A stretch of DNA of 64,000 nucleotides. Source: an uncultured Thermoguttaceae bacterium (GTDB lineage: Bacteria; Planctomycetota; Planctomycetia; Pirellulales; Thermoguttaceae). The stretch is from NCBI GenBank assembly GCA_937951625.1, contig CALFBP010000053.1:1-64000 (forward strand). The letters are read 5' to 3'. The position numbers were made by a program, and so were the translations under genes. Numbering within the stretch: the first letter of the stretch is position 1; every line of letters begins with the position of its first letter. The notes under the pieces were generated by a model. It was given only the letters and a program-made list of their open reading frames with translations, did no database searches and was not told the DNA's origin. Of this stretch, positions 19,176-58,827 are shown piece after piece.

Positions 19176-22100
19176 TCATAGCGAGTTCGGAGCGACTGGG
19201 GCGCCTTTGCCTTTGGGGCCGGCCGGCAGATTCGGGATTTCCAGGCTGCGGAAGCCGTCTAGGACGAACTGTTTGGTGGCGGGCCAGAAGAGGATCCTTC
19301 GCGACTGCTGCGAGGCGCGGCGCTGATGGGGCTGCTGCTGCAAATACAACGTCGCGTCGGTCCGCCCGTCGCCCTCCAATACCAAAAGCCCTTTCGCCTG
19401 ATCAAAGGTCATGCGCACGGCCAGGGCCATGAAGGTCTGGCCTTCGGCTCGGGCATTTCCCTCGGCTTCCAGGGCCCAGGCACGCTCGCCCGTTCCCGCC
19501 GCCGCAAGCTGCGTGGCCGCCAGTCGGTCGCAGGTCAACGTCGCGCCGTGCGGGCCGATGGCCTCGGGACTGTCGTCGTCGAACCGGGCGTCCCATGAGG
19601 CGACGGGAACGTACGTGCAACGGACCTGCTCGTGGAAAACCATCCGCCGCTGGAGGAGATTGCCCGTCAACTCCCGTTGAAACCGCACGTCCAGATAAAT
19701 CAGCGGCGCGGCCGGGCCTTCTGTCCCCGCACGCTGTCCCAGCGGCAGCGTCAAGGGCGTCTCCGCAGTTCGGCGACGCACCGAAATGACCCGTCCTGGG
19801 CCGCTGGCTCGAATCACGCCAGTCGAACGGTTCAATGTCAAATCCAGGACATCCACCCGCTCCATTGAAGTCCGATCTGCCGCTTGGCCCTCGCCTGTCT
19901 CCATCAGCACGCGTCCGCGGCAGACCAAAGTTTCGATCTCCGGCTGGGCGGCCTGCTTGGGGTCGTTGAACCGAATCGGTTCGCGAAAGCCAACCTCCAG
20001 GGTTTCGGTGCGAAGCTGTTGCTGGCCGGAGGTGGCGACCACCGCTTCGTCGAAACGGACGGTCCGGCCATCCAACGCCATGCGATCCTGCCACTGAATG
20101 ACCAACGGACCGGCAGATGGTTGCTGCGGCAGGACCGGTTCCACCGGCCGACCTTGGAGGTCGCGATCCAGCAGTAATTCCACGCGGCCGGGTCCGTCGA
20201 TCCATAGCCGGTTGGCGCCCGCGTTGAGATTGATGTTCGAGCCCACCAGCGTCAGTCCGCGACCCTCGCATCGGGCGGGATTGCCGGTCACCCCAACCGC
20301 GGCATGGGGTGTGCCAGCGCCGACCACGTGAATTCGGTCGCCCGTGATGGCCAACGGCTGGTCGCCTGGTTTCGCCGTCTGCGATTCCAGGAACCGCACG
20401 TTCCCTTCCACGATCAACTCCGTGATCTCGGTGCGTTCCCCAAGGCCTGCCACCCGGGCACGCAGCAGGGCGCCCTCGACGTGAAACTGACGTCCAAGCG
20501 CGACGCCTGTCGCCGGGGCCGAGGAGGACGAACCTGCTAAACCTCCAGCAACCGCCTGGGAAACCAGCAGGCTGGTCCAAGGATTGTCGTCGGTCGCCAC
20601 GCGCCAGGCGGTGCGCGCGGCTCGCGGAAAGTGTCGCGCCAACTGGAGCGGCGAACTGGCCGCGGAACCTCCTGGTGGTTGCGGCCGCGACGTGGAACGC
20701 GTGGGCGGGGGTTGGGGCGTGGCTGATGCGGCCGGCGGCTCGAACCACACCTCCAGTTGACCGACCACGCCAGTAAGTTGGGCCGCCTGCATGTGGACCC
20801 GATTCCGGGCAAGCATCCGATCCGGCTGGAAGGCCATCTTCGCCTTGGGAGGAGATGACTCGAGGGCTTCGTGGGCCGCCTCGTTGAGCCAGAAATGAAT
20901 CTCCGCCGCTTCCAGCTTACCCAATGCCCCATAGTTCAACTCCGCCCCGTCGATGAGCGACAACACGTGCTGCCGGTACTCGTCGGGCCGAAGATGCAGT
21001 CGCCCCTTCCATTGGGCGTGCAACGGCTGGACCAGCTTCTCGCCCATCGTGCCGCGAAGCGACCCCGGTCCTTCGGCCAAGGCCTCGCCCAAGTGGCCTG
21101 GTGTGTCTAACCGATACTCGATCCTTCGGGCGCGAATCGCATTGCCTTCCTGTTGGATCCAAACTTCTTGGCTGCCATCGAACTCCAGACGCAATTCCCT
21201 CGGATCGTACCTGAGCGTCTCGCCCCGGGCCTCGAGGTGGTGGCGTGGGCCGCGGACGATCACCGGATTGCCTCGTGCCTCGACCAGGCGAACCTCGAGG
21301 GCCATCAGGCCTTGTGGACCTAGTGAAGCCGGGCGGCCTTGTTCCGTTTTGGCTGGGGCATCCCCGGGAACATACTTCATCTTGCCTGCGGGCACGGTCC
21401 CGAAAATTGCCGATTTAGCATGGGTTTCATCCTCGGACGCCATCTCGCCGCGTTGCGGCGCGGCGGCTGGTTTGGCGTTCTCGCGGCGCGGGGCGAATTG
21501 GATCGCCAAGATATCGCAGTTCAACTGATCGGCCGGGCCCTCGGGATAGAGTTGCCGCAAGTCCACCCGGTCTTCAAAGGTGGCCAGTTGCTGACCGACA
21601 TCGAACCTGAACGGTCCACGGCAGGCAATTTCGATCGGCAGGGAGGCCTGGGCCTGTTTGGCGGCGGGCGCCTTGGCGACCTGGCCCGACAACATGGTCG
21701 GATCCAGGCAAAGACGCTCGAGCCGGCGTACCTCGATCGATTCGATGCCCGCGATATTCAGTCCGTGACTGCTGGCCGTTGCCCACATGTCGCCAGGCAC
21801 GAAGTTGATCTGCATTTCCGCCCCCCTGCCCCAACTCCTCCCCCACCGGAACTCGATGGGATTCGGCGCCCAAACACGTTGTTCGGACAATTGCACGTCG
21901 CTGGTCACGGCGTAGAGGTCATCGTCGGGCCCGGGGGACTTCCCTTCGCCGCGGATGACGATGCGGCCATTGAGTCGGGCGGCCTTCAATCGGCCGATAC
22001 TTCCCCGCTTCAAATCGAACGGCTGATCGAACTCCAATTCGGCGCCTTTTTCGGCCTGGAGGAGAATGGCCTGGCGGGTCCGCTCCGTGTCGTCCGTCGA

Positions 22101-22544
22101 GCCTCCATGGGGAGTGAAGATGATCGTACACTTCTCGAATCGAACCGTGCGGTTGTCGGCTTCCGCGGCGTAGTCGCCGTCAGGAACTAGGAACTTGACC
22201 AGCTCGCTTTCGAGAACGACCGTGTTGGGGCCAACTTCCCAGTCGTCCGGCCGGAAGAATTGGCGCAGCCCGACCAAGCGGTCGATCGGCGGCAAGGGCG
22301 TCGCCGAGATCGGCCCAGCAGGGCGTCGGTTGATCGGGGGCTCGATCCGCGGCACGACCCAAAGGGCATACGCCCAGTACGCGGCCACGACAATGGCGAA
22401 AGTGGTCGATATCCGTACAAGCCGGGGCATCGCATCCCGCTTTCCACCAAGAGCCCTCTGCCGTTCGCCCGACGTGTGCCAAAGTGCCCCCGGGCCCATT
22501 GGCGACGAGGACGGCAAGTCACTCGCTGCCGGCTGATTGTTCAC
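19176..22544 (-). CDS. Giant membrane-anchored LptC/LptA-like protein
   Basis: A 1122-aa protein with one N-terminal membrane helix (TTFAIVVAAYWAYALWVV, about residues 47-64) and a very long, beta-rich region with no further membrane segment. The GTG at 22544 overlaps the kdsC stop by 4 nt (GTGA), implying translational coupling; ATG 22430, eight residues before the helix, is an alternative start. The body has recurring phrases about evaluating 'vVrGprhhLeArGetLrYd' and 'TRIHVVGAG'-type strands, resembling the repeated jelly-roll strands of LptC/LptA/OstA proteins. In E. coli the order kdsD-kdsC-lptC-lptA is conserved, so this is likely the LPS-export bridge component, here as one giant polypeptide. 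The assignment rests mainly on context and topology. Confidence 0.7.
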   Translation of the reverse strand: MNNQPAASDLPSSSPMGPGALWHTSGERQRALGGKRDAMPRLVRISTTFAIVVAAYWAYALWVVPRIEPPINRRPAGPISATPLPPIDRLVGLRQFFRPDDWEVGPNTVVLESELVKFLVPDGDYAAEADNRTVRFEKCTIIFTPHGGSTDDTERTRQAILLQAEKGAELEFDQPFDLKRGSIGRLKAARLNGRIVIRGEGKSPGPDDDLYAVTSDVQLSEQRVWAPNPIEFRWGRSWGRGAEMQINFVPGDMWATASSHGLNIAGIESIEVRRLERLCLDPTMLSGQVAKAPAAKQAQASLPIEIACRGPFRFDVGQQLATFEDRVDLRQLYPEGPADQLNCDILAIQFAPRRENAKPAAAPQRGEMASEDETHAKSAIFGTVPAGKMKYVPGDAPAKTEQGRPASLGPQGLMALEVRLVEARGNPVIVRGPRHHLEARGETLRYDPRELRLEFDGSQEVWIQQEGNAIRARRIEYRLDTPGHLGEALAEGPGSLRGTMGEKLVQPLHAQWKGRLHLRPDEYRQHVLSLIDGAELNYGALGKLEAAEIHFWLNEAAHEALESSPPKAKMAFQPDRMLARNRVHMQAAQLTGVVGQLEVWFEPPAASATPQPPPTRSTSRPQPPGGSAASSPLQLARHFPRAARTAWRVATDDNPWTSLLVSQAVAGGLAGSSSSAPATGVALGRQFHVEGALLRARVAGLGERTEITELIVEGNVRFLESQTAKPGDQPLAITGDRIHVVGAGTPHAAVGVTGNPARCEGRGLTLVGSNINLNAGANRLWIDGPGRVELLLDRDLQGRPVEPVLPQQPSAGPLVIQWQDRMALDGRTVRFDEAVVATSGQQQLRTETLEVGFREPIRFNDPKQAAQPEIETLVCRGRVLMETGEGQAADRTSMERVDVLDLTLNRSTGVIRASGPGRVISVRRRTAETPLTLPLGQRAGTEGPAAPLIYLDVRFQRELTGNLLQRRMVFHEQVRCTYVPVASWDARFDDDSPEAIGPHGATLTCDRLAATQLAAAGTGERAWALEAEGNARAEGQTFMALAVRMTFDQAKGLLVLEGDGRTDATLYLQQQPHQRRASQQSRRILFWPATKQFVLDGFRSLEIPNLPAGPKGKGAPVAPNSL

Positions 22545-23065
22545 GTGGTGTACGCTTGGATCACTTCATCCCATCGTCCCTGGGCCTTGAGGATCATTTC
22601 GATCACCTCGCGGACCGCGCCCGCCCCACCGGGCAAGCGAGTGATATAGGCCGCGGCCTGGCGCACTTCCTCACAGGCATCGGCGACCGCGATGCCGAGG
22701 CCAACGGCACGGATCACCGGCAAATCGGGCAAGTCGTCGCCCAAGTAGGCGGCCTGCTGCAACGAAAGTCCCGCTTCAGCCAAAATCTCCTTCGTCGTGG
22801 CGAGCTTATCTGAGGCCCCTTGACGCACGATACGGACTTCAAGTTCCGCAGCGCGCATCTTCACAACTTGGGAACTCCGAAGCGAGAGCACTCCGAAGCG
22901 GTAGCCTGCCTTATGCCAGAGGCGGATTCCCAAGCCGTCTCGGATATGAAATTGTTTCGTCTCGATGCCCTGGTTATTGAGCACGACCCGGCCGTCGGTC
23001 AAGACGCCGTCGACGTCGGCCAACAACAACTCGATGGATTGACAGCGTTGCTCCAAGGTCAACAT
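22541..23065 (-). CDS. kdsC: 3-deoxy-D-manno-octulosonate 8-phosphate phosphatase
   Basis: A 174-aa HAD-superfamily phosphatase that releases Kdo from Kdo 8-phosphate. HAD motif I is LLADVDGVLTDG (D-x-D at about residues 16-18); a conserved Lys lies in ASDKLATTKEIL; motif IV is YLGDDLPDLPVI. The length equals that of compact KdsC enzymes with no cap domain. It starts 3 nt after the kdsD stop and its own stop overlaps the next start. Confidence 0.94.
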   Translation of the reverse strand: MLTLEQRCQSIELLLADVDGVLTDGRVVLNNQGIETKQFHIRDGLGIRLWHKAGYRFGVLSLRSSQVVKMRAAELEVRIVRQGASDKLATTKEILAEAGLSLQQAAYLGDDLPDLPVIRAVGLGIAVADACEEVRQAAAYITRLPGGAGAVREVIEMILKAQGRWDEVIQAYTT

Positions 23066-23068
23066 GGT

Positions 23069-24175
23069 CTAAGCTGCATTTCGTTTTCCCTCCAAAGAGG
23101 TGGGCGAAAGAGATTCGTCCACCGCCGCAGTTCCAGCCGCCTTCCCATCGTTCGGCTCAGGCGACTTGGGGAGGATGCCCACCACGTCCGTGATGTCCAA
23201 GAGGCCCTTCGGTCTACCTTGATCATCGACCACAGGTAACTCGCTTATTTTGCGTTGGGCCATGAGAGCGACCGCTTCGACCAGCAGGGAGCCGCTGGCC
23301 ACAGTCACCGGGCGTGGGGTCATGACGTTGCGGATGGGGCCGTCCAGATCACTGTCGCGGCGGCGTTCAAACAGTCGGGCCAGGTCGCTATCCGTGAAGA
23401 TGCCGGAAAGCCGGCCATCGACGTCCACCAACATGATCGCGCCGGTCCGTCGCCCCGGTACCCGTAATCCCACAAACACCTCGCGAACCGTCCGACAATC
23501 CCTCGCTACGCGGCATTTCTCCAAGGGCCTCATGGCCTGATCCACCCGGCTGAGCCTGCGTCCAAGACTGCCTGCCGGGTGCAGTCGCGCGAAGTCCTCC
23601 CGCGTAAACCCCCTCATCCGGCTTACCACCAGTGCCAGGGCATCCCCAACAGCCAGCATAACCGTGGTACTTGTTGTTGGGGCCAACCCCAAAGGGCAAG
23701 CCTCGGGCATCGGACCAAGGGCAAGGGTCAGATCCGCAGCCTTGCCCAAAGTGCTCTGATCATCGGAAGTTATCGCAATCGTGAATGTCCCGAGTGCCTT
23801 CAACCACGGCAAGAGCCGTACCACCTCTTCGGTCTCGCCGCTTTGAGACAAAATCACTACAACATCATCCTGGGGGTGAATTCGGCCCAAATCGCCGTGC
23901 AAGGCATCCGTGGGGTGCAACCAATGACTGCGTGTGCCGGTCGAAGCCAGCGATGCAGAAAACTTTTGACCGATCTGTCCCGCCTTGCCAATTCCGGTAA
24001 CGATCACGCTCCCCTTGCATCGGTAAATGCAATCTGCTGCCCGACAAAAGGTTCCGTCGAGCCGATTGGCCACTAAAGCGATGGTCTCACTTTCCAGTTG
24101 GAGGATCTCTCGGGCGAACTGGAGTTGATCTACGGGAGAGAGGGGTGAATTACCCCTAGTCGATTCATTTATCAT
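23069..24175 (-). CDS. kdsD: D-arabinose 5-phosphate isomerase
   Basis: A 368-aa enzyme converting ribulose 5-phosphate to arabinose 5-phosphate, the first step to Kdo. An N-terminal SIS domain carries VIVTGIGKAGQIGQK, PTDALHGDLGRI and VILSQSGETEEV; two CBS domains follow (about residues 220-345), the second ending in ISELPVVDDQGRPKGLLDITD. The C-terminal tail is about 30 aa longer than E. coli KdsD (328 aa). First gene of the kds operon, with a good promoter just upstream. Confidence 0.93.
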   Translation of the reverse strand: MINESTRGNSPLSPVDQLQFAREILQLESETIALVANRLDGTFCRAADCIYRCKGSVIVTGIGKAGQIGQKFSASLASTGTRSHWLHPTDALHGDLGRIHPQDDVVVILSQSGETEEVVRLLPWLKALGTFTIAITSDDQSTLGKAADLTLALGPMPEACPLGLAPTTSTTVMLAVGDALALVVSRMRGFTREDFARLHPAGSLGRRLSRVDQAMRPLEKCRVARDCRTVREVFVGLRVPGRRTGAIMLVDVDGRLSGIFTDSDLARLFERRRDSDLDGPIRNVMTPRPVTVASGSLLVEAVALMAQRKISELPVVDDQGRPKGLLDITDVVGILPKSPEPNDGKAAGTAAVDESLSPTSLEGKRNAA

Positions 24176-38219: not shown

Positions 38220-40301
38220 TCATTCCACCAACAGCACCGCTTTGCGTGGGGCGAGATCGAGTTTCACCAGACCATCGTTGGTCCTTTCGGCTCCGTAGAC
38301 GCTGCCGTCGGCGGGATCGCAAACGTGCCACGCGCCCGCCGGCTTTGCGGCAAGCTGACCTTGATACCGTTGGCGGCCCACGTTGACCAAAAGAACGATC
38401 CGCCTCCCCTCACGGACAAAACTGCCCAAGGCGATCGTGTCCGCGGGCGGCGAGATGTGAAAGGCAGGCTGAATGGCGGCGATCAGTTCTTCCCGCGACA
38501 ACGCACCCGATTGCCCTTGGTCAACCAAAACCTTCCCCCCGCCCGCGCGAAACGCCTCGACCACTTTGGCCGCCGGCGGCGGGAACTCGATCTCAGCAGG
38601 CGCCACGAGCGTTGTGAAGCGGTGGTCGCCAATTTGCAACGATCCGTCGCTGCCCGGCTTGGCGGCCGCGAGGTGCTCGTGGTCGATGATCGTAAAAGGA
38701 ACTTGACTCCGCTGGAGGGTCTGGCCGAGGCGGGAAAACGAGCTTACGATGCGCTGCGCCCGAGGCGACTGCGAGGAAAGCCGCAACGGTTCGGCCACGG
38801 GGAGATACTCGGCCCAGAGGTCGTGGACCGGGTAGTAAAGGAGGACTTCGCTCTGCATCCGGGCAGGTTTGAGCAAGGCGTTGAGCCGCCCGACGTAGGT
38901 GTTATAGGCCCGATACTGCTCGGGTGAGCGCTGAGGGATGCCATAATAAAGTGTGAACTCGGTCACGCCCCAGGCGGCCTGCCAGGCGGCGGTGGCTTGC
39001 ATTTCCGGCAGTCCGACGGGACCCTGGCGGCTCATGGTCTGCGCGAAGTCGCTTACCTCGGTCATCACCCGGCGGCTGCCGCGGAGCACCGCTGCCGAAG
39101 CAGGCAATCCCGCGGTCATCCAACCGCTATGGATGACGGCCTCCGGATCGGAGGTGAGCAAGTCGAGCCCCGGGATGTCCATCCGCGTGAGGGCCTTGAG
39201 CTTGTTGCCGTCCAGGGCCGGGTGGTGCATCAAGGCCTCTTCCCAGAGCGTGTGACCCGAGGAGGCGACCTTGTGGGCGGCGCACCACGTCTGGATCGTG
39301 CCGAAATAGCGTTCCGCCACCAAGTCTGCGATCAACTCCCAAAATTGCGACCGCACCCGGCGATCCTCGGGCGATTGGCCGGTGAACAGGCTCATTCGCT
39401 GAACGCTCAAGTCCTGGCCGAAACGTTTGCGGTACAGTTCCGCCAGATCGTGGCTCCAAGGGACCGTGGGCAAGGGCTTTACGGTAGGGTCGATCGGGTC
39501 CACCACGCGGACCTTCGTGCGGACCTCCTCTGGCAACTGCCCGAGATTTATGGCAATCAGCGACGGTTCGTCGGTGAAAAAAGCCTGGATGGTCTTGCCG
39601 AAATGCCGCTGGAGACGTTGGTAATATGCCTCGTGCGTCGCCGCGATGAATGCTCGCACCGCCCGTTCGTCGATCACGTTGATGTATCGCCGGGCAGCGT
39701 AATAGTTGTTGCTGGCGTGGGTGTGCTCATAGGCGGGCCGAAGAAAGAGCGGCTCCGGCCGTGAAGGATCGTAGGCCAAGGCGAGGGCCTCGAAGGTCGG
39801 ATTCTCCTTGAGCACCAGCCCGCCGGCCGCGCCGCTGGGATAGCCCTCCTCGTCGTACAGCCACACGACCATGCCCAATTCGGCGCAGGCGTCGATTCCC
39901 GCGATGAGCTTCTGCCAGTTCTCTTCGGAACGAAGATATTGTTGGAAGGCCACGTTGCAGACGATGCCGCCCAGGCCGAGGTCCTTATACTGATTCATCT
40001 TGCGCAGGACCAATTTCTGCGAGCCGCTGCCAGGGACCATTTGATCCAGGGCATCGGCCGTGGGCCGCTCGAGGTCGATCCCGTGGACGATCTGAAGCGG
40101 CCGGTCCGCAAGCGGCGGCTTGTGCCACGACTCCATCCATGCCGTGGGAAGCGGCGGAGGAACCGCTTCCGCGGCCATCAACGTCGTGGCGAGAAACACG
40201 CCGTAAAGCAGCTTTACGACGGAGACTGCAAACGGCCGGCGCCGGCAAGCCGCCTTCGCGAAAAACGGAGACTCAACGACGCGGGTTCGAAACCGTCTCA
40301 T
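38220..40301 (-). CDS. Secreted glycoside hydrolase-like protein (GH106/rhamnosidase-like)
   Basis: A 693-aa exported protein. The ATG at 40301 has a strong GGGAGGA 5 nt upstream; the signal is long, with the hydrophobic part at about residues 26-44 (VVKLLYGVFLATTLMAA). The following barrel-like region has KDLGLGGIVCNVAF, AELGMVVWLYDEEGYPSG, where WLYDEEGYPSG resembles a signature of the GH106 alpha-L-rhamnosidase group, and AFFTDEPSL with a candidate acidic residue. The C-terminal third looks like the Rossmann/beta-galactosidase-trimerisation-like region plus a small beta domain. Assignment to GH106 is tentative. Confidence 0.6.
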   Translation of the reverse strand: MRRFRTRVVESPFFAKAACRRRPFAVSVVKLLYGVFLATTLMAAEAVPPPLPTAWMESWHKPPLADRPLQIVHGIDLERPTADALDQMVPGSGSQKLVLRKMNQYKDLGLGGIVCNVAFQQYLRSEENWQKLIAGIDACAELGMVVWLYDEEGYPSGAAGGLVLKENPTFEALALAYDPSRPEPLFLRPAYEHTHASNNYYAARRYINVIDERAVRAFIAATHEAYYQRLQRHFGKTIQAFFTDEPSLIAINLGQLPEEVRTKVRVVDPIDPTVKPLPTVPWSHDLAELYRKRFGQDLSVQRMSLFTGQSPEDRRVRSQFWELIADLVAERYFGTIQTWCAAHKVASSGHTLWEEALMHHPALDGNKLKALTRMDIPGLDLLTSDPEAVIHSGWMTAGLPASAAVLRGSRRVMTEVSDFAQTMSRQGPVGLPEMQATAAWQAAWGVTEFTLYYGIPQRSPEQYRAYNTYVGRLNALLKPARMQSEVLLYYPVHDLWAEYLPVAEPLRLSSQSPRAQRIVSSFSRLGQTLQRSQVPFTIIDHEHLAAAKPGSDGSLQIGDHRFTTLVAPAEIEFPPPAAKVVEAFRAGGGKVLVDQGQSGALSREELIAAIQPAFHISPPADTIALGSFVREGRRIVLLVNVGRQRYQGQLAAKPAGAWHVCDPADGSVYGAERTNDGLVKLDLAPRKAVLLVE

Positions 40302-40365: not shown

Positions 40366-43116
40366 TCAAGGTCCGCGGAGCTGCAACCGCGCGTCGAGCA
40401 CCTTGCGAATTCGCGCAGCGTTTTCCTTGAGGTGCGCTAAGGTGTAAGGGTCGAGCTTGGCCTGGCCGGCCATCGCGGCGTTCATTCGGGCCTCGATTTC
40501 GCCGAGTTGCATGAAGGCGATCGTCTGGCAATCTTCCGGCGCAGCCACGTTGCCCAAGGCCAGGTTCGACAACCGCTCCAGGTAGCGCCGCTGGAGCGCC
40601 CGTCGCTGCGGCGAAATGGCCGGTTTTCTCGTCGAGAATTCGCCTTGCTGGAGCCGATCGAGTTCGCTGAACAGGGCCTTCGAGAGGCCCGCCAGCAGCT
40701 CGACCGCAGTGAAGGCGTCCTGATCGGGCGGGACCTTCATCTCGGAATCGATCAGACGCGACAGCGTGACGGTGGACAACAGGAGGCCGAGAATCCGATC
40801 CTGCCAGCCGAGGATCGATTCCCGCACGGGATAGTCGGCGCGGTCCACTTCGCGCATTCCCCAGTGAGACCAGCGGCTGTCGACCAGCAGGTTCCACAGC
40901 CCGGCCGGAATATCGAAGGCCTTTTCGCCGAAGACGTGCTCCGTGAGCAAAGCCAGAGACTCGCGCTGACGCGCCGCCTCGACGACCACGAAGGGCGGCT
41001 TGGCCCCTGGATCCGATTTGTGATTGCGGTGGGAATACACACCGCCGATAAGCCGCGCGGCGGCGTACATCGCCGAATTCTGGGCGTTGAATAGCATGTT
41101 GAACGCCCGCCGTGTCCGATCATACCCACCGCCCGACTCGGTCAGCCGGTCCACCAGGCCCGGGAGGAGCTGCCAAACAAGTTCCCGACGCATCTTGGCG
41201 AACTGAATCGGATCCTTGCCCAAGTCGAAACGGTTGACCAGCGGATCGGGATCATTGGGGCGGGCATCCTCGTCGGGAGCGTAGGCCAGGGCGGGTTCAG
41301 CGGATCGGGCAGCGATCTTTTTCAGTTCCGCCACCTCCCCGTCCGTTCCCCCTGCCAAAGGCTTGTAGCCATATTCGATTGCCCAATAGTCATAGGGACC
41401 AAGCGTTGTGCTGAAATAATCCCCTTGCTTATGGCCCTTGGGCATGAAATTGACCGGCAGGTAGTCCATGATCGAGGCCGAGAGACTGGTCTGCTTGGTT
41501 TTCTCGGGGTCGTTGATCTCTTCGAGGGTCAGGTACGCGCTGGCCTTGAAATTGTGACGCAGCCCCAAGGTGTGGCCCACTTCGTGGATCGTGATCGACT
41601 TGACCGCCTGATACACGAGCTTCTCGAACTCCTCTTTCCCCATCGGTTTGCCGGACGACTCGGCGGCGAGCGAGCCCAAGAATAATTGTTCGGCCATGCC
41701 CTGACCAAGCTGACAGATATGACGGCCGTGCCCCTGCGGCTCGGAAAGCGGATTGCGGAGCCGGTCCGCCAGCCGAAAGGCCTCAGTCCCGGCGGACGCA
41801 TGTTCGCCGCTCAGCGAGCCCTGCGGCGGGCCGAGAACGTCGTACTCGTCTTTCCAAAAGCTGAGGAAGTCGGCGTCGAAAATCACGTCGGCATCGAGGA
41901 TTTCGCCGGTGATCGGATTGACGCGCGACGGCCCCATCGCAAATCCCGCCCCGGCCGTAATCCATCGGAACGTGTTGAAGTTGATATCCTCGGGATCGAA
42001 GTCGTCGCTGGGCCGCTGCTCGCGAACCTCGATCGCGTTGGCGAATCCGACCCGCTCGAACGCCTTGTTCCACTCCAGGATTCCCTCCTGGATCGGCTTG
42101 CGGTAGGCGAAGGGGATGGTCTTTTCCAGCCAAAAGATGATTTTTTTCTTGGGGGGAGAAAGGTTTGCTTGCGGCTCCTCCTTACGCAAGTCCCAGCGGT
42201 TGATGTAACGCACGAAGCGGTCGCTGTCGTACTTTCTGGAGAAGTTTTTCACGGCGGTGACGAAATAACCCACCCGCTCATCGGCCAACCGCGGCTCATA
42301 GCCCGTCTGCGGTAGGATGCTGAGCGAGTAGTGGACGTTGATGGTCGCGCCGCGGGCATCGGCCACGGTGTCCATCCGCGCCGTCCCGCCCGAGGCATAC
42401 GTGGCCGCCACCTGGATTTCCACGTTGTCGCGAAACGCCTTCACGCTGGCCCAGCTCGATCGTTCCCGCGCGAAAGCGAATCCCCGAAGGACCTGGGAGA
42501 TTTGGGGCAAGTCGCTCATGAACACGGGGGTCAGGTCCACCACGGGATTGCCCGCCGGACTCATCGTGGCCAAAGGCAAACTGAACAAGACACTGTCGGT
42601 ATAGGCCAACTGCACCGCGCGTTCCTCTGGGCTTCCCTTGGCGGCTGTGAAACGCACGTTCCGCCGCACGATCTGCACCTTGTCCTCCACGCGGCGAAAC
42701 TGCCAGATCCAGTCGTCGCCAAAGCCCCACGTCATACCGCTGATCAAGGGCGTCTCGCCGATGCCTCGGGCAATAGCGATGGCCACCAGCAGGTCTTTGT
42801 TGAAAAGCGGAGCAGCGATCTCGGCGTACAGCTTGTCCTCTTTGCGGTACAACTTGAGCAGCCCGTCAATCGTTTGGGCGTCGCGAAGCAATTCGGCGAA
42901 GGGCGGAAACTTGGGCTTTGGTGTCTCGGCCGTCCCACCACTGCTTGGCGCCCCCGCGATCCCACCCGGCCCGCCCGGCGACACTGGCGCCTCGATCGAG
43001 GGCTTTGACACCTCTGTGGTCGGGGGTTTGCCCGAGGGTTTCTCATCAGCCGTGCCAAAAACACTTCCGGCAACGAAAAAACAGACGACCAAAAGCGCTT
43101 TCACAGGTCCTAACAT
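40366..43116 (-). CDS. Secreted zinc-dependent metalloprotease (DUF5117/DUF4953 type)
   Basis: A 916-aa exported protein. The ATG at 43116 gives a signal (VKALLVVCFFVAGSVFG) followed by a Pro/Gly-rich linker. The N-terminal half corresponds to the DUF5118/DUF5117 regions; near residue 508 is the metzincin-like zinc site HEVGHTLGLRHNF (H-E-x-x-H-x-x-G-x-x-H) preceded by AVKSIT. The C-terminal part has FAKMRRELVWQLLPGL. The family is widespread in Bacteroidetes and planctomycetes, with peptidase activity inferred from the zinc motif. It starts before a long non-coding stretch and ends 64 bp upstream of the GH106-like gene, with which it could form an operon. Confidence 0.88.
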   Translation of the reverse strand: MLGPVKALLVVCFFVAGSVFGTADEKPSGKPPTTEVSKPSIEAPVSPGGPGGIAGAPSSGGTAETPKPKFPPFAELLRDAQTIDGLLKLYRKEDKLYAEIAAPLFNKDLLVAIAIARGIGETPLISGMTWGFGDDWIWQFRRVEDKVQIVRRNVRFTAAKGSPEERAVQLAYTDSVLFSLPLATMSPAGNPVVDLTPVFMSDLPQISQVLRGFAFARERSSWASVKAFRDNVEIQVAATYASGGTARMDTVADARGATINVHYSLSILPQTGYEPRLADERVGYFVTAVKNFSRKYDSDRFVRYINRWDLRKEEPQANLSPPKKKIIFWLEKTIPFAYRKPIQEGILEWNKAFERVGFANAIEVREQRPSDDFDPEDINFNTFRWITAGAGFAMGPSRVNPITGEILDADVIFDADFLSFWKDEYDVLGPPQGSLSGEHASAGTEAFRLADRLRNPLSEPQGHGRHICQLGQGMAEQLFLGSLAAESSGKPMGKEEFEKLVYQAVKSITIHEVGHTLGLRHNFKASAYLTLEEINDPEKTKQTSLSASIMDYLPVNFMPKGHKQGDYFSTTLGPYDYWAIEYGYKPLAGGTDGEVAELKKIAARSAEPALAYAPDEDARPNDPDPLVNRFDLGKDPIQFAKMRRELVWQLLPGLVDRLTESGGGYDRTRRAFNMLFNAQNSAMYAAARLIGGVYSHRNHKSDPGAKPPFVVVEAARQRESLALLTEHVFGEKAFDIPAGLWNLLVDSRWSHWGMREVDRADYPVRESILGWQDRILGLLLSTVTLSRLIDSEMKVPPDQDAFTAVELLAGLSKALFSELDRLQQGEFSTRKPAISPQRRALQRRYLERLSNLALGNVAAPEDCQTIAFMQLGEIEARMNAAMAGQAKLDPYTLAHLKENAARIRKVLDARLQLRGP

Positions 43117-43721
43117 GGCATCGTGTCTGGGCAGAAAAGGATGGGAAGGGGCCACTTTTTGGAGCTTTGGCGGTCGGACAACTTGTTGGATTCCGCAAAT
43201 ATAGCCTATCTTCCCAAACTTACGACATAGGGAGAAGGCCCTGGACTAATTTGTGGGACAATTCCACGCAATGCAGTCACATCGGGGGTAGGCGACCAGC
43301 ACCGATGATGGGCAAGCGTCACTGTGCCCTCGTGGGTGAAGCCCGGCAACCTGCCACGATCATCAAATTCAGTTCAGTTAGACGAAGCGTCATTGACCTC
43401 GATTGACCGAGCGATTGCCATGACCAGGGCCGCGCGATTGCCCGACTGCCTGTCGCCTCGCTTCGGTTGCAAAAGCCGTCGCGGTGCGCGGGGCAGAGAT
43501 CTCATTGACCGCCGGACCGCGGCGGAGTCTATTATGGGGGCGCGGGCCGGGATGCTTTGCCAGCAGGTTGGGCGAGACGCCGCAAACTCTGTTTCGTGCA
43601 TTCCCCACGGTGGCTGCGCCGCAGCTTGAGACCTGCTGGAGACCCAAAGCCCCAACCGCTCGTGCTCATCGTTTTTGTGCGTGTGAGGGTAAGCTGATTT
43701 CTGGAAAAAGGATGTTGATTC
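43117..43721. other. Long intergenic region with a possible promoter for the esterase
   Basis: 605 bp between divergent genes. TTGACC (43505-43510) and TATTAT (43530-43535) with a 19-bp spacer may drive the esterase. Short plus- and minus-strand frames here have no recognisable product, ribosome site or coding character. Confidence 0.35.
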
Positions 43722-57087: not shown

Positions 57088-58827
57088 TTAGTTGCCGCCA
57101 AAAGGGGCCTTCTTCTTGCCTTTCGCGGCGGGCCCGCCCATCATCGCAGGGCCGATGTTCATCAAACCTGCCATGCCAATCGCCTTGAGAACGCCTTCCT
57201 CGGCCGTCAAGCGGATTTGCATTCCATTAGAGACCGGCGAAGCGGCGATCTTTACGTGGTCCTTGCCAGGCGAGCTGGCAAGCACCTTGGCGATCATTTC
57301 GAATTGCTGCTTTTGGTCGTCTTCAGCTACCGAGGCGGCGAAATGCAAAACATCGGCCAGGGCCAACGATATTTCGGCAGGCGGTAGCGGCTTCCCGGTG
57401 GAAACTCTCCTTTCGATGGCCTCCTTGAGCGAGGCGGCCGCGTTCCGGCCCATCGCCAGGTATAGCTTCGTTTCACCAATTCCGATCACGGTGTCGACGT
57501 TGTCTCCCACTAGGGCACGTAGCTTCTGGCGGGTATCGGCCTCCTCGATCATCTCGACGGGAATCGAAAGAACATGGAATCGAACACCGCCGTGTTCCTC
57601 GGCATTGAGTTTGAACAACCGGGCCGCAGCGGGGTTTTCCTCGCCAACTTGTTCGATCAACTGTTTGATCACCGATTCCAGCTTGCCACCTTCGGCAATC
57701 TGCATTCCGACAAGCAAGAGGAAAGCATTGGGTTTCAAGTTAACCGAAGCCGCAAAGTCGAGTTTCCCGCCGTCCAAGGTCTTTTCGGCCACGTCCATCA
57801 GGTCGCCGGCCAATTGTTTGGCCAACTTGGCCTGATCCTCGGGAAGGCCCTGTTTTTCAATCTCGGCTAAGGCGTTGGCGCGGAGTCCGGCCATGTTGGA
57901 CTTGGCTTGGGCGATGTCTGCCGCGTCGAGCTGCTGGGCAACGTGGACCTTCATCGCGGCATCCGGCGAAAGCAGCCCGGCGAACTGGGTTTGGACTTGG
58001 CCGGTTTTCGCAAGCCTCTTGGCGCTAACAGAGTTCGGAACCAGAGTGGTCGTGAATTCCACGTAGGCCGACGAACTCGCCTCGTCGAGCTTGATGCCCA
58101 ACGTCAAAGCGTCCAAGTCGTTCAGCGTAGTCTTCACCTGCTCCGTGGCCTGTTGAAGCATCTTGGAACGGGCGGCAAACTGATCCTCGCTTTCACCGGG
58201 CATCTGCTGGAGGCCGGCCTGAACGCTAAAGGCCATCAGCTCGAGGAATTTCCTCCGCAGGCCCTCGGGAATGTTGCTGATCGATGCGCGGACGCCGAGA
58301 TGATACTTCTCGTGCATCCCACCCGTGGCCGCAACGGGGTCTGCTGGAGCGTCGAGCACCGATTCTTTCTTGTTGGAAACGACCGTCCAGGCGCCGTGCT
58401 GCTTCACGAAGATCGACTGGTTGGGGGCCTTCAGCTCCAAGGCGCCGTCGCCGGCGTCCTCGGGCTCGGCCGGCAGGGGCAACGCTTTCAGCGCCGACTT
58501 CACATCACGGATGGGCAAAAAGCCTTGAATCGCATAATCCTCACCGTCCTCGTCGATCTTCACCACCAGAACCCAGGGCTGTTTCTTGTCCAAGGTTTTG
58601 AGGGCTTCGGCAACTCCCGCCTGTTGTTGGATTTGCGCTTCCAACAGCAACGGCAAGCCGGGCATTCCGGCAAGCTTGCCAATCATTCCCACGCCTTGCA
58701 TCAGTTGGTCGTAACCCGCAAATGACACGGTGACGACCTGCTTCAGATCCTTCGCATCCGCGGGATGAACCCAAAACACGATCGGCAAGGCCACCGCCAC
58801 CAAAGTCCGTACCAGCAATCTTTTCAC
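57088..58827 (-). CDS. Secreted protein of unknown function
   Basis: A 579-aa exported protein starting at GTG 58827 (AAGGAG 8 nt upstream), with signal LLVRTLVAVALPIVFWVHPADA. The rest alternates beta strands and helices: QLMQGVGMIGKLAGMPG, WVLVVKIDEDGEDYAIQGFLP, and a helical part LLSPDAAMKVHVAQQLDAADI. The C-terminus is Gly/Lys-rich (AAKGKKKAPFGGN). I recognise no catalytic motif or named family, although similar long secreted proteins occur across planctomycetes. Confidence 0.8.
   Translation of the reverse strand: MKRLLVRTLVAVALPIVFWVHPADAKDLKQVVTVSFAGYDQLMQGVGMIGKLAGMPGLPLLLEAQIQQQAGVAEALKTLDKKQPWVLVVKIDEDGEDYAIQGFLPIRDVKSALKALPLPAEPEDAGDGALELKAPNQSIFVKQHGAWTVVSNKKESVLDAPADPVAATGGMHEKYHLGVRASISNIPEGLRRKFLELMAFSVQAGLQQMPGESEDQFAARSKMLQQATEQVKTTLNDLDALTLGIKLDEASSSAYVEFTTTLVPNSVSAKRLAKTGQVQTQFAGLLSPDAAMKVHVAQQLDAADIAQAKSNMAGLRANALAEIEKQGLPEDQAKLAKQLAGDLMDVAEKTLDGGKLDFAASVNLKPNAFLLLVGMQIAEGGKLESVIKQLIEQVGEENPAAARLFKLNAEEHGGVRFHVLSIPVEMIEEADTRQKLRALVGDNVDTVIGIGETKLYLAMGRNAAASLKEAIERRVSTGKPLPPAEISLALADVLHFAASVAEDDQKQQFEMIAKVLASSPGKDHVKIAASPVSNGMQIRLTAEEGVLKAIGMAGLMNIGPAMMGGPAAKGKKKAPFGGN

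Follow-up and report, generated by a model that had tools for sequence, protein, structure and literature searches.

A giant kds-locus protein of Planctomycetota as a probable fusion of LptC with several LptA-type units

Introduction

In Escherichia coli, the helix of LptC packs between LptF and LptG, and lipopolysaccharide (LPS) moves from LptC to LptA and on to the N-terminal domain of LptD through joined jellyrolls (PMC9972910). Together with the periplasmic portions of LptF/G and LptD/E, LptC and a single LptA measure about 16 nm, and the periplasm of E. coli measures 21 nm (PMC5575297). The genes lie in the order kdsD-kdsC-lptC-lptA-lptB, with LptC and LptA as separate proteins of 191 and 185 aa. 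Diderm Firmicutes have two separate OstA proteins of about 200 aa (PMC5007114).

Planctomycetes possess LPS, LptD and BamA (PMC3422733, PMC10632474), and LptD was present in all planctomycete genomes searched by Speth et al. in 2012 (PMC3422733). One survey describes the planctomycete Lpt set as largely reduced (PMC8871954), and an essential-gene study of Planctopirus limnophila reports lipid A genes among the essential ones, with no Lpt protein mentioned in the main text (PMC10632474). In the open-access papers searched for LptA/LptC in connection with planctomycetes, fusion or gene order, we found no description of the giant protein described here. This protein is encoded at the kds locus of an uncultured Thermoguttaceae bacterium and, with a probability that we put at roughly 0.87, is a fused LptC-(LptA)n, in other words the periplasmic bridge of the Lpt exporter in one chain.

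Results

The window analyzed here is a stretch of 64,000 nucleotides on contig C53 of an assembly of 4.59 Mb that is 98% complete. Three genes at one locus are relevant to the argument.

23069 to 24175, minus strand: kdsD-type arabinose-5-phosphate isomerase, SIS and two CBS domains (TIGR00393 KpsF/kpsF, 257.6 bits, cut-off 203.7)
22541 to 23065, minus strand: kdsC, Kdo-8-phosphate phosphatase (KdsC subfamily TIGR01670, 154.1 bits, cut-off 106.95)
19176 to 22544, minus strand: giant, probable fused LptC-(LptA)n protein (longest frame 1122 aa from a GTG overlapping the kdsC stop; probable ATG at 22430, 1084 aa)

A sequence-only reading of the window had described a kdsD-kdsC pair followed, with a GTGA overlap, by a frame of 1122 aa in the place where proteobacteria have lptC and lptA. 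The open reading frames, the profile matches and the minus-strand bases 22541-22544, which read GTGA, confirm the overlap of kdsC with the 1122-codon frame, and the position matches that of lptC-lptA in the E. coli gene order. The overlap is thus real as sequence, but it may not be where translation of the giant begins. An ATG at 22430, preceded by GGAAAG, is codon 39 of the 1122-codon frame, and the first methionine of most relatives is the equivalent of this codon, which makes it the likelier start; the GTG at 22544 was set aside as the true start for the same reason. The real product is therefore probably 1084 aa, judged by comparison with the relatives, with a gap of about 110 nt after kdsC. 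Downstream of the giant gene lie a phosphoribosyltransferase gene and a glycosyltransferase. Elsewhere in the window, two long open frames of 693 and 579 aa (38220-40301 and 57088-58827, both minus strand) have no Pfam match at E 1e-5, and 40366-43155 (minus strand) encodes a 929-aa met-zincin protein (DUF4953/DUF5117/DUF5118).

Of 196 genomes from the same order, 190 contain a match to the giant (156 of the 159 that are of good quality), and most of the frames measure 970-1300 aa. The named relatives comprise Pirellulales, Planctomycetaceae and other Planctomycetota metagenome-assembled genomes, among them Thermoguttaceae bacterium JANLFZ010000238.1; kdsD and/or kdsC lies directly upstream in 17 of the 20 that have upstream sequence. 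An in-family relative (G181, locus L013) agrees with this Thermoguttaceae record in its N-terminal sequence and in its identity to the window protein, which by itself would very likely place the window in a Thermoguttaceae/Pirellulales planctomycete. Together, the conservation and gene order rule out a chance open frame. In a sister family (f21), the gene immediately preceding the giant is kdsD, and a profile built from 16 relatives also found the full-length giant in a further family of the class.

The chain was modeled with AlphaFold2 from 22 sequences without templates, in its 1084-aa form. The whole-chain model (mean pLDDT 75, pTM 0.59) consists of one N-terminal helix followed by almost only beta strands, and hydropathy finds one hydrophobic helix at aa 45-67, so that the chain has the single anchor and beta-rich composition ascribed to it by the sequence-only reading. 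Stretches of 58 and 76 residues (aa 356-413 and 607-682) are predicted to be disordered and interrupt the structured part, and because of the whole-model pTM of 0.59 the positions of the units with respect to one another are uncertain. Its domains, in the numbering of the 1122-codon frame, are as follows, with similarity to LptA units of roughly 660-aa fusions from other classes (see below) given where found.

22344 to 22412, minus strand: single N-terminal transmembrane helix, aa 45-67 (hydropathy; helix 2-29 in model numbering)
21684 to 22229, minus strand: LptC-type beta-jellyroll domain, aa 106-287 (structure matches to LptC; profile-profile match)
21045 to 21647, minus strand: LptA-type unit A, aa 300-500, containing the disordered insertion aa 356-413 (E 6e-14 to an LptA unit of the ~660-aa fusions; LptD_N)
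20715 to 21062, minus strand: LptA-type unit B, aa 495-610, weaker (E 5e-7 to unit A; best decoy 4e-3)
20499 to 20726, minus strand: low-complexity linker rich in Pro/Ala/Ser/Gly/Gln, aa 607-682, disordered according to the model
20130 to 20507, minus strand: LptA-type unit C, aa 680-805, the weakest repeat (E 5e-5 to an LptA unit of the fusions; lowest decoy E 4e-3)
19755 to 20147, minus strand: LptA-type unit D, aa 800-930 (E 1e-11 to an LptA unit of the fusions)
19230 to 19706, minus strand: C-terminal LptA-type jellyroll, unit E, aa 947-1105 (LptH/LptA structure matches; E 1e-10 to the last unit of the fusions)

Hydropathy and the model agree on the layout typical of LptC, one N-terminal transmembrane helix and then a beta-jellyroll. 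When the N-terminal 262 residues were folded alone (pLDDT 81.7), the top four structure matches were all LptC: 4b54 (Z 12.8, 2.5 A over 123 residues), 6mit_C (12.6), 3my2 (12.6) and 6mjp_C (12.5), the alignments covering 123-137 residues at 2.5-3.0 A. The next matches were LptA/LptH, and the first unrelated fold followed at Z 6.0. In profile-profile comparison with LptC domains, a narrower alignment of the N terminus was not significant, and an alignment of 60 sequences gave E 1e-5 over 139 columns, with the best decoy at 0.03. Neither the window protein nor anything else in the host genome reached the curated cut-off of PF06835 or TIGR04409 (LptC).

At the opposite end, aa 947-1105 of the model form an LptA-type beta-jellyroll, which superimposes on LptH 4uu4 at 1.7 A over 122 residues (Z 15.0) and on LptA 2r1a_C at 2.0 A over 122 (Z 14.9). 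The LptC fold at one end and the LptA fold at the other are the arrangement expected of an LptC-LptA fusion. With the whole model, the best Foldseek matches include LptD chains and then LptA, and a second structural alignment returned LptH/LptA at the C terminus, followed by the LptD N-domain and LptC. Identity to canonical LptC and LptA in structural alignments is about 8-18%.

Five LptA-type units, A to E, were placed by profile-profile comparison, in which unit E covers about aa 945-1112. Units A, D and E give repeat-to-repeat profile matches at E 1e-7 to 1e-14, and unit A matches unit E at 2e-10 to 2e-11; units B and C have modest profile matches only. Each query was accompanied by 27 reversed or shuffled decoys, which mostly scored above 4e-3 and had best values of 0.004-0.03, save for one unit-A decoy at 3e-5, because of which single profile matches near 3e-5 were not relied on. 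The number of units, estimated from the repeats and the residues available, would be about four to five. Curated models recognize part of the chain: PF03968 (LptD_N, the LptA and LptD N-terminal family) matches aa 434-481 of the window protein with 22.8 bits (cut-off 20.4), and four further relatives exceed the cut-off at this same unit or at the C-terminal unit. Against the LptA equivalog TIGR03002 the window protein scored 22.5 bits, below the cut-off of 71.7, and the sole match of the giant's profile among PDB sequences was LptA at E 0.3, too weak alone. LptA-type repeats, for which the sequence-only reading had proposed to look, are thus recognized by profile between an LptC-type N terminus and an LptA-type C terminus. 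LptA itself is a separate soluble periplasmic protein with a signal peptide; here the units lie inside one TM-anchored chain, and we therefore class the giant as a fused variant and not as LptA.

A long beta structure shaped as a groove, with a single N-terminal helix as its anchor, is also typical of AsmA/TamB/YhdP-like proteins, and the giant might instead be a bridge-like carrier of another lipid, such as phospholipid, that happens to share the beta-taco fold. We consider this very unlikely indeed, since the best matches are LptC and LptA/LptH, and since the locus and the complementary absence of lptA and lptC (see below) point to Lpt. AsmA-type proteins were absent among the structural matches, and a Pfam search of the window protein up to E 5 returned LptD_N and a chance DUF but no AsmA-type family; either absence is weak evidence.

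Fusions of this kind extend beyond the order. The Pfam LptC model had no match among the listed genomes of the class, and in the phylum 61 of the 294 genomes sampled had one, for the most part in a frame of 560-1700 aa and not of about 190 aa; these frames often also hold a stretch matched by the giant's profile. Loci read out from other classes have a single protein of about 560-1120 aa directly after kdsD-kdsC. Several of these single-chain proteins contain LptC (25-73 bits against a cut-off of 21) together with LptA/LptD_N (55-102 bits against 20.4); two exceed the cut-off of 38 of the LptC equivalog TIGR04409, with 82.4 and 51.5 bits, and one relative of about 660 aa reaches 70.9 bits against the cut-off of 71.7 of the LptA equivalog TIGR03002. 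Because recognized LptC and LptA domains share one chain at the same locus, the fused form is, judged from sequence, common across the phylum; the Pirellulales protein belongs to the same group but has diverged further and has a larger number of repeats. One genome (G216, contig C55, L115:2510-3031) has a separate LptC of 174 aa after kdsD-kdsC, possibly the ancestral state or a transferred locus.

Two LptC-containing open frames in other classes are longer still, at 1690 aa (L116:2248-7317, G398, contig C62) and 1599 aa (L117:3891-8687, G333, contig C24), and might possibly encode even longer bridges. Downstream of the fusions of about 660-720 aa (L096, L100, L101, L107) lies a frame resembling glycerophosphodiester phosphodiesterase, with the motif H-[RN]-G-x-x-E-[DEH]-x-PENT.

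The host genome encodes other components of the Lpt machine: LptB on contig C71 (333 bits, cut-off 240), LptF and LptG on C45 and C94, and LptE on C37 (50.7 bits, cut-off 23); LpxC is on C97. LptD is present as a candidate of about 1085 aa with an OstA-like N terminus (G000, contig C7, 6739-9993, minus strand; loci L124/L135), conserved in 39 of 40 relatives. The candidate is borderline, its trimmed protein scoring 20.3 bits for LptD_N against a cut-off of 20.4 and the LptD barrel model remaining below its cut-off; from such scores, the planctomycete LptD would itself be strongly diverged. Profile searches of the host genome, a check proposed by the sequence-only reading, found neither a separate LptC nor a small LptA frame, and the 11 significant PF03968 matches across 80 genomes of the class lie without exception in frames of 1004-1187 aa. 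Because the profiles are insensitive here, this is good but not perfect evidence that separate lptC and lptA are absent. A PF03968 match at C18:45556 (E 0.2), in a 1269-codon frame without a closed ORF in that stretch, was treated as a chance or shadow match.

The strong divergence of the giant from canonical LptC and LptA, at about 8-18% identity, would also suit a relative that has been put to some other use, as a scaffold or for a different glycolipid, with LPS exported by other, unrecognized proteins. This is very unlikely, since LptB, LptF, LptG, LptE and lpxC are present with nothing else joining them to LptD, the presence of the giant in nearly all genomes of the order fits an essential bridge, and less diverged members of the phylum retain clear LptC and LptA signatures at the same locus.

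Discussion

Both folds, the internal repeats, the intermediate fusions and the lack of detectable separate lptC and lptA support the original proposal of one giant LptC/LptA-like protein. The missing LptC and LptA of planctomycetes are probably this diverged fusion. The crossing of the periplasm by LPS in planctomycetes was previously without a named component, and the fusion fills this gap.

By analogy with the E. coli exporter, LptB2FG in the inner membrane would be the docking site of the N-terminal helix and LptC-type jellyroll, which would take over the cargo, presumably LPS, once ATP hydrolysis has extracted it. Some four to five LptA-type jellyroll units of the beta-taco type would then form a hydrophobic groove in which the lipid moiety of LPS crosses the periplasm, and the C-terminal unit would pass LPS to the N-terminal domain of outer membrane LptD. 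The LptC-LptA and LptA-LptA handovers would become intramolecular.

The sequence-only reading had further proposed that one such polypeptide spans the periplasm by itself. Since about 16 of the 21 nm of the E. coli periplasm are already covered with a single LptA (PMC5575297), several further LptA-type units could bridge an ordinary periplasm, and one chain might do so alone, with a groove that would be continuous despite the two disordered linkers, which could act as hinges or loops. Alternatively, the protein is a real Lpt fusion of which one chain does not suffice, either because the linkers split the groove into two rods or because several chains or an extra protein complete the bridge. 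The predicted disorder at aa 356-413 and 607-682 favors the latter view, planctomycetes can have a much enlarged periplasm of variable width (PMC5394234), beyond the reach of any fixed rod, and a model with a pTM of 0.59 cannot decide on the continuity of the groove. Against it, the giant has several units more than the single LptA of the 16-nm estimate, which is enough in principle, and an extra LptA gene was not found. We regard such an insufficient chain as quite possible, if on balance doubtful. The giant chain may represent an adaptation to the planctomycete envelope.

For the phylum, we regard it as an even bet that planctomycetes build the whole bridge from LptB2FG to LptD as one covalent polypeptide without free LptA, with a lineage-dependent number of units (frames of about 560 to about 1690 aa) and a genetically fixed length that may track the distance between the membranes. 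The length would be fixed genetically, and not set by oligomerization of LptA, because lineages differ in unit number. A natural single chain with countable units fixes the stoichiometry of the bridge and so makes the stoichiometry question testable, and lineages with different unit numbers allow bridge length to be compared directly with the geometry of the envelope.

An inner-membrane-anchored single protein that replaces separate periplasmic carriers has a parallel in the elongated MlaD of Veillonella parvula, a proposed envelope bridge (PMC10665443). The parallel is an analogy only, as MlaD has an MCE domain, a phospholipid cargo and another fold, and the giant is not homologous to it. The N-terminal domain of LptD has the same type of beta-jellyroll as the units of the giant, but the giant is without an outer membrane barrel, and a separate LptD candidate is encoded on contig C7. 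Like LptC of proteobacteria (PF06835, TIGR04409), the giant has an N-terminal transmembrane helix, then a beta-jellyroll, and a gene position after kdsC; in contrast to LptC, this part makes up only the first ~250 residues of a chain of about 1084-1122 aa, is followed by LptA-type units and is too diverged for the Pfam and NCBIfam LptC models. With LptA/LptH (PF03968, TIGR03002) the giant shares the C-terminal fold and the LptA profile signature of its repeats, and it occupies the place of lptA in the operon. Whereas E. coli LptA is separate, soluble, periplasmic and able to oligomerize, the LptA-type units of the giant are linked covalently, both among themselves and to LptC. In these terms, the giant is the known Lpt machine in a new form, a fused LptC-(LptA)n chain.
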